A stretch of 64,000 bases of DNA from Planctomycetota bacterium (GTDB taxonomy: Bacteria; Planctomycetota; Planctomycetia; Planctomycetales; Planctomycetaceae). Location: positions 1 to 64,000 of the forward strand of contig JAQCEJ010000010.1 in the NCBI GenBank assembly GCA_027618475.1, in the 5' to 3' direction. The notes beneath the pieces are model-generated. The model did not search any database, had not been told where the DNA came from, and saw nothing but the letters and a program-made list of their open reading frames with translations. A program made the position numbers and the translations under genes. Positions 151 to 4,371 of this stretch are shown piece by piece (the stretch's first letter is position 1; every line of letters begins with the position of its first letter).

Positions 151-2010
151 TTATGCGGCGATCTCTCCCCGCCGTTCGACCGATCGCGTTGCTTCGTTCA
201 GCACGGCTTCGATGACGTCGACGGTTCGTTCCAATTGTTGCGGCGTAAGGGTCGGATGTACGAGAAACATCAAACTCGTGTTCCCCAGCATCTGAGCGAT
301 GCGCAGCGGATGTGCGGGTTGATAGTTCGTTGCATCAAACGCCTGCTCGCGATAAATCTCGGAACAGCTGCCGCTGCCGCACAGGATACCGCGGCTTTGA
401 ATTTCTTTGACAATGCGGTCTCGCGACCAGCCGGAATTCAGATACTCGGATCTCAAGAACGCATAATACTTATAATAACTGTGACCGCATTCCGCGGGAG
501 GGGGCGTTAAACGCAGCACCGGATTGCAGCTGAAACGTTCATTCAAATATGCGGCGTTACGTCGGCGGGCTTGGACCCAGTCATCGAGTTTTCGAAGTTG
601 TAACCGTCCGATCGCGGCCTGCATTTCGGTTAACCGCCAGTTGGTTCCGAAGCGATGATGTACCCATTTGAAAATGGCATCGCTCGGTTGATAAACGGCG
701 TCCCAGTCTTTTCCATGATCTTTAAAGCTCCAGGCGAACTTCCAGATCTCTTCGTCGTTCGTGGTGAGCATGCCCCCCTCGCCGCCGGTGGACATGATCT
801 TATCCTGGCAGAACGAAAACGCCGCCACATGCCCGAGCGAACCCACCGACCGTCCGCGGTACGTCGCTCCGTGTGCCTGAGCACAATCCTCGATGACTTT
901 GAACCGGCACTCGTCGGCGAGCGCCATAATCGCATCCATATCGCATGGCCAACCGGCGAGATGCACGACGATAACGGCTTTAGTTTTCGGAGTCAGTACC
1001 TGTCGAATCGACTCGGCTGTGATGTTCTGGCTTTGAGCGTCGACGTCGGCGAATACCGGGTTGGCTCCGCATTGCACGATCGAGCTTGCCGACGCCATAA
1101 AGCTCCGGCAGGGAACGATGACATCATCGCCGGGACCGATATCGAGCGACTTGAGAGCCAGTTCGAGGGCCACAGTACCATTAGCCAACGCGATTGCATA
1201 CTGACAGCCAACTGCTGTCGCGAACTCGTTTTCGAACAGGCGTGTCTCGTGTCCGGTCCAGTAATTCACTTTACCCGACCGCAATACGTTGACGACGGCC
1301 TGCACTTCGTCTTCTTCATAGTTTGGCCACGGAGCGAGTGTGGAAATTGTCGTCGTGGTGGGGGGCGGATTGATCGCGAGGGGTGATTGAGCCCATTCGT
1401 CGCCATGAGGAGGAAGTTGATCGGCACGCCCCGAAAGGATGAGTCCGATCGTTTTCCCGGCAATCGACAGGTCGAGTTTGCAACTGAGATGTTCGATGTA
1501 ACACAGGTCATACTCGATGCGGGCCGGCCAGGGAATCGACGCTCCGCCGTGGATCTGGGCCATGCCGGTAAGACCTGGTTTGACGAGTGCCCGTCGCCGC
1601 TGCGATTGGGTCATCCGCAGATAATCTTCCTCGACGGTCGGCCGGGGTCCGATCAGCGACATCGTACCGTTGAGGACGTTCCAGAGTTGCGGGAGTTCGT
1701 CGATTTTGAAAGTTCGCAGAAATTGTGCGCCGGGAAAAATGCGAGGATCGCCCGTGACCGTCGTGCTTCCGGTATGCGTCGCCGCCGTATTGAGATGCAT
1801 CGTGCGAAATTTGTAGAGCGTAAACGGCCGTTCGCCCCAGCCGATGCGCTGCTGCGAAAAAAAGACCGGCCCACGAGAGTTCCATTTGATGATAGCCGCC
1901 GCCAGCAGAAAGATCGGGCTGAGAATCACGAGTGCCAGTGCCGCGCCGACACGGTCTATGAGATCTTTCCAGATTGGCTGGCGAAGGTGAGTTTGAGGGA
2001 ATGGGACCAT
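151..2010 (-). CDS. Fused phosphoglycosyl transferase / DegT-family aminotransferase
   Basis: Two enzymes in one chain of 619 residues. Residues about 1-205 are a bacterial sugar transferase (PglC/WcaJ type): a single N-terminal hydrophobic segment (VGAALALVILSPIFLLAAAI), KFRTMH, the catalytic Asp-Glu pair in FKIDELPQLWNV (D104-E105) and SLIGPRP. It would move a phospho-sugar from UDP-sugar to undecaprenyl phosphate at the inner membrane. Residues about 225-619 are a PLP-dependent DegT/DnrJ/EryC1 aminotransferase, with the PLP lysine in FCQDKIMSTGGEGG (K404). The start at 2010 is preferred because GGAGA lies 7 bases upstream; an upstream ATG at 2070 would add 20 residues. It lies downstream of a sulfotransferase and a glycosyltransferase on the same strand. 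The fusion resembles the PglE and PglC steps of bacillosamine-type glycan assembly. Domain calls are firm; the substrate is inference. Confidence 0.9.
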   Translation of the reverse strand: MVPFPQTHLRQPIWKDLIDRVGAALALVILSPIFLLAAAIIKWNSRGPVFFSQQRIGWGERPFTLYKFRTMHLNTAATHTGSTTVTGDPRIFPGAQFLRTFKIDELPQLWNVLNGTMSLIGPRPTVEEDYLRMTQSQRRRALVKPGLTGMAQIHGGASIPWPARIEYDLCYIEHLSCKLDLSIAGKTIGLILSGRADQLPPHGDEWAQSPLAINPPPTTTTISTLAPWPNYEEDEVQAVVNVLRSGKVNYWTGHETRLFENEFATAVGCQYAIALANGTVALELALKSLDIGPGDDVIVPCRSFMASASSIVQCGANPVFADVDAQSQNITAESIRQVLTPKTKAVIVVHLAGWPCDMDAIMALADECRFKVIEDCAQAHGATYRGRSVGSLGHVAAFSFCQDKIMSTGGEGGMLTTNDEEIWKFAWSFKDHGKDWDAVYQPSDAIFKWVHHRFGTNWRLTEMQAAIGRLQLRKLDDWVQARRRNAAYLNERFSCNPVLRLTPPPAECGHSYYKYYAFLRSEYLNSGWSRDRIVKEIQSRGILCGSGSCSEIYREQAFDATNYQPAHPLRIAQMLGNTSLMFLVHPTLTPQQLERTVDVIEAVLNEATRSVERRGEIAA

Positions 2011-2128
2011 CAGGTGTTCTCCGGAATTTTTCCTCGTTTGCAAGCTCCGTGTGGGAACGTACGTCTTCATAACTTCGCTTCGTCAATTCGTAGATTGCGT
2101 TGTTTCCGATCCTCTTGTCGCTGCGCGA

Positions 2129-2172: not shown

Positions 2173-3084
2173 TCACGCAGCGCGTGACTTAATGTGCGAT
2201 GTCTCACCGTATCCTGTTAATTCTTGTGCTCGTGCGATATGCGGGGAAATTTGGGCAAGAATCTCGGGAGCAAGCGATTTCTGCGCCTTGCCGACGCTTC
2301 CGACCGAAACTCCCTGGATGGCGGCACAGAGATGCGGGTCGTCGCCGGGGAGTTGAAAACGCTCGGTGATTCGTTGTAATTCGATGATGGGGTTGTGTAC
2401 GAAGTCTTCGTAATGCAGCGTCAACACGCGGCGGGGATCGAGTTGTGACAGATCGCGATGCGCGGCTTCAACGCATCGTGCCCATTGAATCGCACACAAT
2501 TCCGGGAGTGACACGTTCTTTGCCGTCTCTTTCCAATCCTGCCAGCGCGGTCCCCAGACGGCGAGACGTTTTTCGTGATGGAACAGGCGAATGCAACGGT
2601 TTTGCAGGTAGCGACAGGCGTAAAATGGCAGATCGAACGTCGGTACGTAACGTGCCTTTTTGAGCAGATAGGAAATATCCAGCGGAGCCGTCCAGCGTTT
2701 CATCGCCGAGGCGACGACGTCTCGTCCATCGCGTACCAGAAAGACGTACCTGGCATCGGGAATCACCGCATCAACAAATGGAACGCGAAGCGAATTCGCA
2801 CAGGTTTTTTCCACCAGGCACCGGCCGTGGTCTTGGTGTGCCATGCGGTCGAACGCCCTCCGGATGTATCGTGTCACGTTCGGTGTCGCGTGTGAGGCAT
2901 TGAACTCATCATGAGGGATATTGCGATGCCGGTAACGCCAGATGTAATTGATTTCATCGCATGGCCACGTCGTCACGCCGGGTAGCCGGCAAAGTACATC
3001 GCGGAGCATGTTGGTTCCGGTCCGCGGTGCGCCGATGATGATCAGCGGTTGATAGTGTCTTGCGTGTGAATGAGACAGCAACAT
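2173..3084 (-). CDS. Sulfotransferase family protein
   Basis: 303 residues. The N-terminus carries the PAPS 5'-phosphosulfate-binding loop GAPRTGTNML (residues 18-27), and FLVRDGRDVVASAMKRW near residue 115 matches the 3'-phosphate-binding strand and helix of sulfotransferases. It should transfer sulfate from PAPS to a hydroxyl or amine on a carbohydrate or other acceptor in the cytoplasm. It lies 18 bases downstream of a WbuB-like glycosyltransferase and upstream of the sugar-transferase/aminotransferase fusion, all on the minus strand, which suggests sulfation of a cell-surface glycan. No strong ribosome site is visible before the ATG. The acceptor cannot be read from sequence. Confidence 0.85.
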   Translation of the reverse strand: MLLSHSHARHYQPLIIIGAPRTGTNMLRDVLCRLPGVTTWPCDEINYIWRYRHRNIPHDEFNASHATPNVTRYIRRAFDRMAHQDHGRCLVEKTCANSLRVPFVDAVIPDARYVFLVRDGRDVVASAMKRWTAPLDISYLLKKARYVPTFDLPFYACRYLQNRCIRLFHHEKRLAVWGPRWQDWKETAKNVSLPELCAIQWARCVEAAHRDLSQLDPRRVLTLHYEDFVHNPIIELQRITERFQLPGDDPHLCAAIQGVSVGSVGKAQKSLAPEILAQISPHIARAQELTGYGETSHIKSRAA

Positions 3085-3102: not shown

Positions 3103-4371
3103 TTACGCGGCTCGACGTAAGGGTTCTAATTTTGAGAAAGCAGTCTTCGCCGTCAGTTGGTTCATTACATCTTCCAATTGACTGGCGAGGCTGACGAAAC
3201 TGTGATGCTGTTCGACATGCAGGCGACCGCGGCGGCCCATTGCTTGACGCTCCGACAACGGTAAAGCGGCGAGTTGTCTGATCGCGCCTGCCAGCGAACG
3301 AGGATCGCCGGGCGTAGCGGTGACACCGGCACGGGCGTCTTCAATCGGATTAAACGGCGTCGAGACACTAAAGATCACCGGCCGGGCACACGCCAGATAA
3401 TCCCACAATTTGTTCGGGCTGATTCCCCAGCGAAACACCGGAGAATTTTCGAGAACCATCAGAAACGCATCGGCCTCTTGCAGCGTGGCATAGACCTGAT
3501 GCTTGGGGACAGGGGGTGCGAATTCGACATTGTTCAATCCCAATTCTTGGGCCCGTTTCATCAGCCGCGTCTTTTCGCGACCATCCCCCACAAGTTTGAA
3601 ACGAATGCGACCGGCGACGGGGTCATCGGACGCTTTCTGCAAGACCTCCGCGGCAGAAAGAACGTCGTCGAGTCCGTTGGCGGCACCGTGCGCACCGGCA
3701 AACATCGCCGTAAATATGTCTCGATCTTCGAGCGGTTTCGGGTCGGGAATCCACTCGAGGTCGATGCCGTTCGGCAGCCAGACGGTTTTTTCGACCGTGC
3801 CGCCGTGTTCTGCAATGTATTGTGCTGCACCCGGGAGCAGCGACAATACCTGGTCGGCTCTACGATACAGTCGCCATTCGAGCTGACTCATCCACCACAC
3901 CAGCGGATGCCGCCGCGAGACGCTGCCTAAACTGACAAGCGTTTCGGGCCACAAGTCGCGAATTTCGAGAAGGAACGGTATTCCGAATCGCCGAGCGAGG
4001 CGTTCTCCGGCCCAGGCGGCCATCAAGTCGGGACTTGAACCGAGAATCACATCGGGCCTCGGTTCGTTTTTCAATCCTTGTTCGCGCCAGACGCGTCCGG
4101 CAAAGACCGCCATATTCCAAAGCCGGGCGATCGAATTTCCTTTGTAGGGAGGAGTACGCATCCAGTGGAACGGAACGCCGTCGATGATTTCACGCGCGTA
4201 GACTTCTCCGTCGGCCAACCGGGTCTCTTCGCAGGCTTTGTGAAAAAAGCTGGTGGAGATAACGGTGACGTCGTGCCCGCGACGGATCAGATGCCGGGCA
4301 AGGCTGTAATGCCTGGTCCCGGCAAAATGACTGGGGGCATAAGCGTAATGATTGACGATCCACAAGCGCAT
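3103..4371 (-). CDS. Family 4 glycosyltransferase (WbuB-like)
   Basis: 422 residues with a GT-B fold. The N-terminus MRLWIVNHYAYAPSHFAGTR and the RHDVTVIS-type strand are typical of WbuB-like GT4 enzymes. Other landmarks are PDVILGSSPDLMAAWAGERLARR, LEIRDLWPETLVSLG, WLPNGIDLEW, and the donor-site region SPNKLWDYLACARPVIFS, which holds an SPNKLWDY block in place of the usual E-x7-E signature. It probably transfers an N-acetylated or 6-deoxy sugar to a lipid-linked glycan at the cytoplasmic membrane face. GGAAGGG sits just before the ATG. It is the first gene of the minus-strand glycan run, 18 bases before the sulfotransferase. Sugar specificity is unknown. Confidence 0.88.
   Translation of the reverse strand: MRLWIVNHYAYAPSHFAGTRHYSLARHLIRRGHDVTVISTSFFHKACEETRLADGEVYAREIIDGVPFHWMRTPPYKGNSIARLWNMAVFAGRVWREQGLKNEPRPDVILGSSPDLMAAWAGERLARRFGIPFLLEIRDLWPETLVSLGSVSRRHPLVWWMSQLEWRLYRRADQVLSLLPGAAQYIAEHGGTVEKTVWLPNGIDLEWIPDPKPLEDRDIFTAMFAGAHGAANGLDDVLSAAEVLQKASDDPVAGRIRFKLVGDGREKTRLMKRAQELGLNNVEFAPPVPKHQVYATLQEADAFLMVLENSPVFRWGISPNKLWDYLACARPVIFSVSTPFNPIEDARAGVTATPGDPRSLAGAIRQLAALPLSERQAMGRRGRLHVEQHHSFVSLASQLEDVMNQLTAKTAFSKLEPLRRAA

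Follow-up and report, generated by a model that had tools for sequence, protein, structure and literature searches.

The locus studied here raises the question of whether two enzymes of amino-sugar glycan initiation, a phosphoglycosyl transferase (PGT) and an aminotransferase (AT), are truly encoded as one polypeptide and, if so, which reactions that polypeptide would carry out. The window (the whole stretch of planctomycete DNA analysed, 64,000 nucleotides) starts at base 1 of its contig (C151). The fusion gene lies 150 bp from this contig end and so its downstream neighbours are out of view. Judged from sequence comparisons, the gene probably encodes a genuine bifunctional glycan-initiation enzyme that arose by fusion of a neighbouring gene pair within an operon for an amino-sugar glycan.

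Two enzyme domains in one reading frame

The features discussed below are as follows, with residues of both domains numbered on the 639-aa frame.

151..2070, minus strand: longest open frame of the fusion, 639 aa (P0001; open-frame reading)
151..2010, minus strand: PGT::aminotransferase fusion gene, preferred start M21, 619 aa (GGAGA motif and open frame to 151)
1435..1968, minus strand: monotopic PGT domain, residues 35-212, with D124-E125, GPRP 141-144 and KFRTM 87-91 (Pfam and alignment)
1330..1434, minus strand: PGT C-terminal tail (RAD..PP..DEW) and Thr/Pro-rich linker ending near residue 247 (lacks an in-frame start; modelled as disordered)
211..1320, minus strand: DegT/DnrJ/EryC1/StrS aminotransferase domain, residues 251-620, with K424, Q422, D395, S419 and N477 (Pfam and residue mapping)
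2173..3084, minus strand: sulfotransferase (PF13469; Pfam), upstream, 102 bp from the fusion frame
3103..4371, minus strand: GT4-family glycosyltransferase (WcaI/WbuB-like; Pfam), first gene of the likely operon

The open frame from 151 to 2070 comprises 639 codons with no internal stop. Because a GGAGA Shine-Dalgarno-like motif precedes the ATG at 2010 (codon 21) and none precedes the ATG at 2070, the true extent of the gene is probably 151-2010. This is exactly the span given in the initial annotation, which did not state the strand.

The N-terminal half has the conserved domain Bac_transf (PF02397; residues 35-212, profile positions 1-178 of 179, 193 bits against a cut-off of 27) and the C-terminal half has the conserved domain DegT_DnrJ_EryC1 (PF01041; residues 251-620, profile positions 3-359 of 360, 323 bits). 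Both scores are in the hundreds of bits, far above chance level. The initial annotation had described both domains as complete, with the catalytic Asp-Glu pair and the PLP lysine present, and the Pfam matches and residue mapping agree with this.

In the PGT half, the dyad is D124-E125, the uridine-binding PRP motif is P142-R143-P144 and the core residues K87, R89, R119 and R160 are retained. When aligned with the PGTs of related loci, it keeps every position that is at least 90% conserved except A115, I140 and C190, and the residue at 115 is alanine in the closest PGTs as well. The conserved P52 lies within a hydrophobic helix that is broken near residue 50 in the first AlphaFold model and unbroken in the second. 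In the PGT tree, the domain groups with those of L017, L016 and L146 (100/99) on a branch of 1.14, compared with 0.15-0.22 in its sisters, an effect that is only mild in the raw identities. The long branch could reflect altered specificity or relaxed constraint. It would also suit a protein with only one active half, in which the PGT had lost sugar transfer and served as a mere membrane anchor, the fusion being a tether. However, the catalytic positions and nearly all near-invariant ones are retained and the visible part of the cluster has no second PGT, such that this explanation is considered very improbable. As for the substrate of a PGT half that is active, as in the preferred reading, the closest PGTs (53-58% identical) adjoin a formyltransferase gene. 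The window domain lacks the RPLLMEY-type stretch that is usual in acetyltransferase-linked (bacillosamine-cluster) PGTs, which makes acetylated bacillosamine a slightly less likely substrate.

The AT half has K424 as its PLP lysine, and none of the positions that are at least 95% conserved in an alignment of its relatives differs in the window. Its best solved relative is Pcryo_0638 of Psychrobacter cryohalolentis (PDB 7L7X; E-value: 1.3e-143, Foldseek identity 52%). Pcryo_0638 aminates UDP-4-keto-6-deoxy-GlcNAc to UDP-2-acetamido-4-amino-2,4,6-trideoxy-D-glucose (PMC8040287). Its residues Q183, T60, D156, S180, K185 and N239 correspond to Q422, T299, D395, S419, K424 and N477, its cis W9-P10 pair corresponds to W248-P249, and K454 and G567 are further retained counterparts of its ligand residues. 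The uracil-sandwiching Y229 and F335 are both changed (to F467 and G565). Because glycine is also found at the F335 position in the stand-alone ATs of L037 and L019, this pair does not look family-defining. An N. gonorrhoeae record, which we take to be the neisserial PglC (the aminotransferase), is 57.7% identical to the AT half. In the AT tree, the window groups with L020, L016 and L017 (89/72, an open fork). The AT half can thus be placed in the Pcryo_0638/Neisseria PglC group of 4-aminotransferases, with amination as its predicted activity. The earlier assignment to the 4-amino-sugar kind holds, as Pcryo_0638 runs the same reaction as PglE. The PglE/PglC pair of Campylobacter, which had served as the template, is not the best one: the AT belongs with Pcryo_0638 and Neisseria PglC, and the PGT is of a type other than that of bacillosamine clusters.

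Codons 213-247 consist of the native PGT tail followed by the linker, which runs up to W248 (the equivalent of W9 in Pcryo_0638). The same RAD..PP..DEW tail is found in stand-alone PGTs of G009/G010 (P0006 and P0007). There is no in-frame ATG, GTG or TTG between codons 170 and 256 and so a separate start of the AT is impossible in the assembled frame. A C6 run sits at the junction, within the linker. If one linker base were wrong in the assembly or the reads, two overlapping PGT and AT genes could have been joined into one frame. The other two frames do offer start codons (M-G-S-I-T-P... and M-A-T-N-G-L...) and the halves are separate genes in all other genomes seen, except for a triple fusion in L177 (described below). 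However, the first stops in the shifted frames come as late as codons 251 and 268, which would require the PGT and AT to overlap by approximately 25-40 codons, whereas the overlaps in relatives are shorter (approximately 11 to 56 bases). Furthermore, both native ends are retained in the chain, the junction is more than 1 kb from the contig end and the related triple fusion exists. An indel error at the C6 run is considered an unlikely cause of the joined frame, as is an artefactual fusion as a whole. The direct fusion is known from one genome, and no genome of the same genus was among those searched. The initial annotation had proposed that the fusion would be refuted by separate genes in close relatives combined with a stop or frameshift between the domains: the former are indeed found, but nothing interrupts the frame here.

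Gene order in relatives and the search for further fusions

The glycosyltransferase, sulfotransferase and PGT::AT genes are likely to form a three-gene operon. The order of these genes matches that of L153, from a genome of another family of the phylum, in which a glycosyltransferase (55.6% identical to that of the window), sulfotransferase (48.6%), PGT (42%), AT (58.5%) and PglF-like dehydratase occur in a row, with 257 bp between the PGT and AT. The sulfotransferase and WbuB-like gene that had been noted near the fusion do lie beside it, and their order recurs in a distant planctomycete. The window sulfotransferase is also 49.6% identical to one upstream of the PGT in L017, another planctomycete locus, where the order is sulfotransferase, PGT, formyltransferase, PIG-L and AT (L017:5226-8981). 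The PGT-formyltransferase-PIG-L-AT module is found again in Ruegeria, at three loci (L092, L096 and L105). The presence of an N-formyltransferase and a PIG-L deacetylase in this module suggests a 4-formamido initiating sugar, perhaps one that is also 2-de-N-acetylated. Based on the gene orders in L153 and L017 and on the groupings in the PGT and AT trees, both halves of the window protein are probably derived from one such cluster. Fusion would have been enabled either by the loss of intervening genes or by direct neighbourhood of the two.

All 80 loci that were fetched from genome contigs with the protein as query have the PGT and AT as separate genes. In these and the planctomycete loci, automatic classification found 56 ATs with a same-strand PGT no more than 3 kb upstream. 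A PglD-like or hexapeptide gene lies between them in 29 cases, and seven cases have a PGT-PglD fusion; the two genes are direct neighbours in six and other arrangements make up the remaining 14. One of the six direct-neighbour cases is L033, in which a hexapeptide acyltransferase is fused to the N-terminus of the AT itself (L033:6593-8200, plus strand, 535 aa); this gene and the PGT gene upstream of it share 11 bp. A PGT directly next to an AT with no acyltransferase between them is found in L131/L153, L154, L060, L054 and L075.

The initial annotation had called for a search for other PGT-aminotransferase fusions in planctomycete genomes. No second direct fusion was found in the 80 genome loci, 59 relatives, 392 genomes of the phylum, 398 of the class and 170 of the order (the last searched with the PGT half). 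Because a fused relative might show an AT match alone, long open frames were read by hand. Joint matches over both halves that the 80-locus search gave in L037, L060, L070 and L075 proved to be separate genes. The 600-aa ORF of G026 (L019) has an upstream extension with no recognisable domain, the 638 frame of G145 consists of an AT plus an upstream open frame, and the 757-aa ORF of G614 (L178) extends into non-homologous sequence. In G292, approximately 240 hydrophobic N-terminal aa precede the AT in one frame (L151:3568-5481, minus strand), but translation might start internally at codon 205 or 235 and so this fusion is uncertain. This frame adjoins a 668-aa GT4-PGT fusion frame (L151:1542-3548, plus strand), and another GT4-PGT fusion followed by an aminotransferase is found at L180:7586-9505. 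Among the matches listed, those from plasmids were relatives of the AT and general PGTs, and two further records have one place covering at least 80% of the query.

The search did yield one PGT-acetyltransferase-AT chain. L177:5759-8275 (plus strand; G683:C2), from the class of the window but a different family, is a single 838-aa frame with a PGT (22-196), a PglD domain (218-290, plus hexapeptides) and an AT (451-816). The sole in-frame start near the AT boundary is a GTG at 458, inside the AT. Like the window protein, this chain has a PGT and an AT of the same subfamily in one frame and in equal order; unlike it, an acetyltransferase lies between them and the PGT is of the bacillosamine-cluster type (RPLLMEY). 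It is predicted to be a three-enzyme bacillosamine-type initiation chain and, by its sequence, is an independent joining of PGT and AT activities in one polypeptide. As this chain exists, the combination is not confined to the window.

Predicted reactions and the question of acylation

The proposed model for the fusion protein is as follows. A PglF-like dehydratase, the one close match in the window genome (encoded on contig C208, unlinked to the fusion), would convert UDP-GlcNAc to UDP-2-acetamido-2,6-dideoxy-4-keto-hexose. The C-terminal PLP enzyme, as a homodimer, would aminate C4 of this sugar. The N-terminal reentrant-helix PGT would then move the sugar-1-phosphate to polyprenol phosphate via a covalent intermediate on the Asp-Glu dyad, and the adjacent glycosyltransferase and sulfotransferase would extend and sulfate the glycan. 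The two activities, their substrate, the tethering to the membrane and the sulfation of the product are all inferred. In this reading, the chain would aminate the UDP-4-keto sugar and next load the sugar phosphate onto its lipid carrier, perhaps with no acetylation in between.

Pcryo_0638 is a dimer in which each active site is formed by both chains, and so the fusion is expected to be a dimer with two membrane PGT heads, probably on flexible linkers. The fusion would anchor the aminotransferase at the inner membrane and increase the local concentration of the pathway intermediate. Tethering of this kind is the modest claim for the fusion; channelling between the active sites, as put forward in the initial annotation, is a hypothesis. 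Two AlphaFold runs gave mean pLDDT values of 65 and 61 and pTM values of 0.40 and 0.37. They modelled the PGT domain well, left the linker (approximately 218-252) disordered and yielded no reliable domain arrangement; the AT was poorly modelled, as only a small number of AT rows could be placed in one alignment with PGT rows (alignments A1 and A4 were misaligned). Foldseek matched the first domain to PglC and the second to 7L7X by 3Di and sequence, with poor superposition of 7L7X.

The initial annotation held that a separate acetyltransferase would still be needed. This is not established, given the WcfR/WcfS pathway of Bacteroides fragilis (PMC13063421), the PGT-AT neighbours that have no acyltransferase between them and the lack of a PglD-family match above the cut-off in the genome. 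In B. fragilis, UngD2 (or PglF instead), WcfR and WcfS produce lipid-linked AATGal with the 4-amino group free (PMC13063421), and the small PGTs include a UDP-FucNAc4N group that WcfS represents (PMC12550135). The window genome (100%-complete) has neither a PglD_N (PF17836) match above the cut-off nor a close formyltransferase or PIG-L (best 27-30%). Other hexapeptide transferases are present, e.g. on C77, C131 and C203, some of them beside other aminotransferase clusters. The clusters on C77 and C203 (L031 and L032) each pair a DegT aminotransferase with hexapeptide transferases, and C203 also has a formyltransferase-like gene. These separate amino-sugar pathways might act in trans.

Acylation of the 4-amino sugar in trans before transfer is a sub-case of the bifunctional enzyme rather than an exclusive alternative: the fusion would concentrate the enzymes, and its two steps would not be consecutive. 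A PglD-type acetyltransferase is the working partner of Pcryo_0638, of Neisseria PglC and of most relatives (PMC8040287, PMC11130364), and a formyltransferase gene lies beside the close PGT relatives. The further hexapeptide transferases on C77, C131 and C203, and neighbours that lie beyond the contig end, could supply such an activity. On the other side are the complete genome with neither a PglD_N match nor a close formyltransferase or PIG-L, and the acyltransferase-free PGT-AT pairs of L131/L153, L154, L060, L054 and L075. Trans-acylation is regarded as a substantial possibility, if somewhat short of an even chance. In another reading, one membrane-bound enzyme may make a free 4-amino sugar nucleotide and load the unacylated sugar on the lipid carrier in consecutive steps, starting a sulfated glycan with both positive and negative charges, the fusion having arisen by loss of the acylating genes between the PGT and AT. 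This full scheme is put forward tentatively and is rather doubtful.

Comparison with known systems

PGT-partner fusions are natural clues to enzymes that cooperate at the membrane in glycan initiation. One AT subfamily occurs as a separate gene, adjacent to a PGT, fused to an acetyltransferase, fused to a PGT and an acetyltransferase and, in the window, fused directly to a PGT. This series offers test objects for true channelling as opposed to co-localisation only, and the direct fusion predicts glycan initiation with an unacylated amino sugar. No described PGT-aminotransferase fusion was found in the literature examined, outside of which lies the 2021 PNAS survey of the PGT network, and priority is not claimed.

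The Bi-PGT class was reportedly described by O'Toole et al. in 2021. It comprises PGTs fused to pathway enzymes (PMC10942596), and the window protein likewise combines a PGT catalytic domain and a pathway enzyme in one frame. Neisseria PglB is a PGT-acetyltransferase and PglB2 a PGT-ATP-grasp protein (PMC11130364). The window protein resembles these and other Bi-PGTs in that a small PGT shares its chain with another enzyme of one amino-sugar pathway (PMC11130364, PMC10942596). The partner of its PGT, however, is an aminotransferase, one step further upstream, and the chain has no acyltransferase domain. Campylobacter PglC (PDB 8G1N, 8E37) resembles its N-terminal domain (E-value: 3e-34, a Foldseek match, DE dyad and PRP motif), whereas the window PGT differs from such small monotopic PGTs in lacking the RPLLMEY-type stretch of bacillosamine-type clusters. 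Pcryo_0638 (7L7X) and Neisseria PglC are very close to its AT, in which the PLP lysine, the counterpart of Gln183 and other ligand residues are retained; they are stand-alone proteins, however, and two uracil-contacting residues are changed in the fused AT. In B. fragilis, WcfR and WcfS act in the proposed order, an aminotransferase (forming UDP-AATGal) and then a PGT (forming BPP-AATGal), without 4-N-acetylation (PMC13063421), although as two separate proteins and with a likeness that rests on the pathway, not on the sequence of WcfS. The window fusion is best regarded as a variant of the known bifunctional monoPGTs in which the partner is an aminotransferase.
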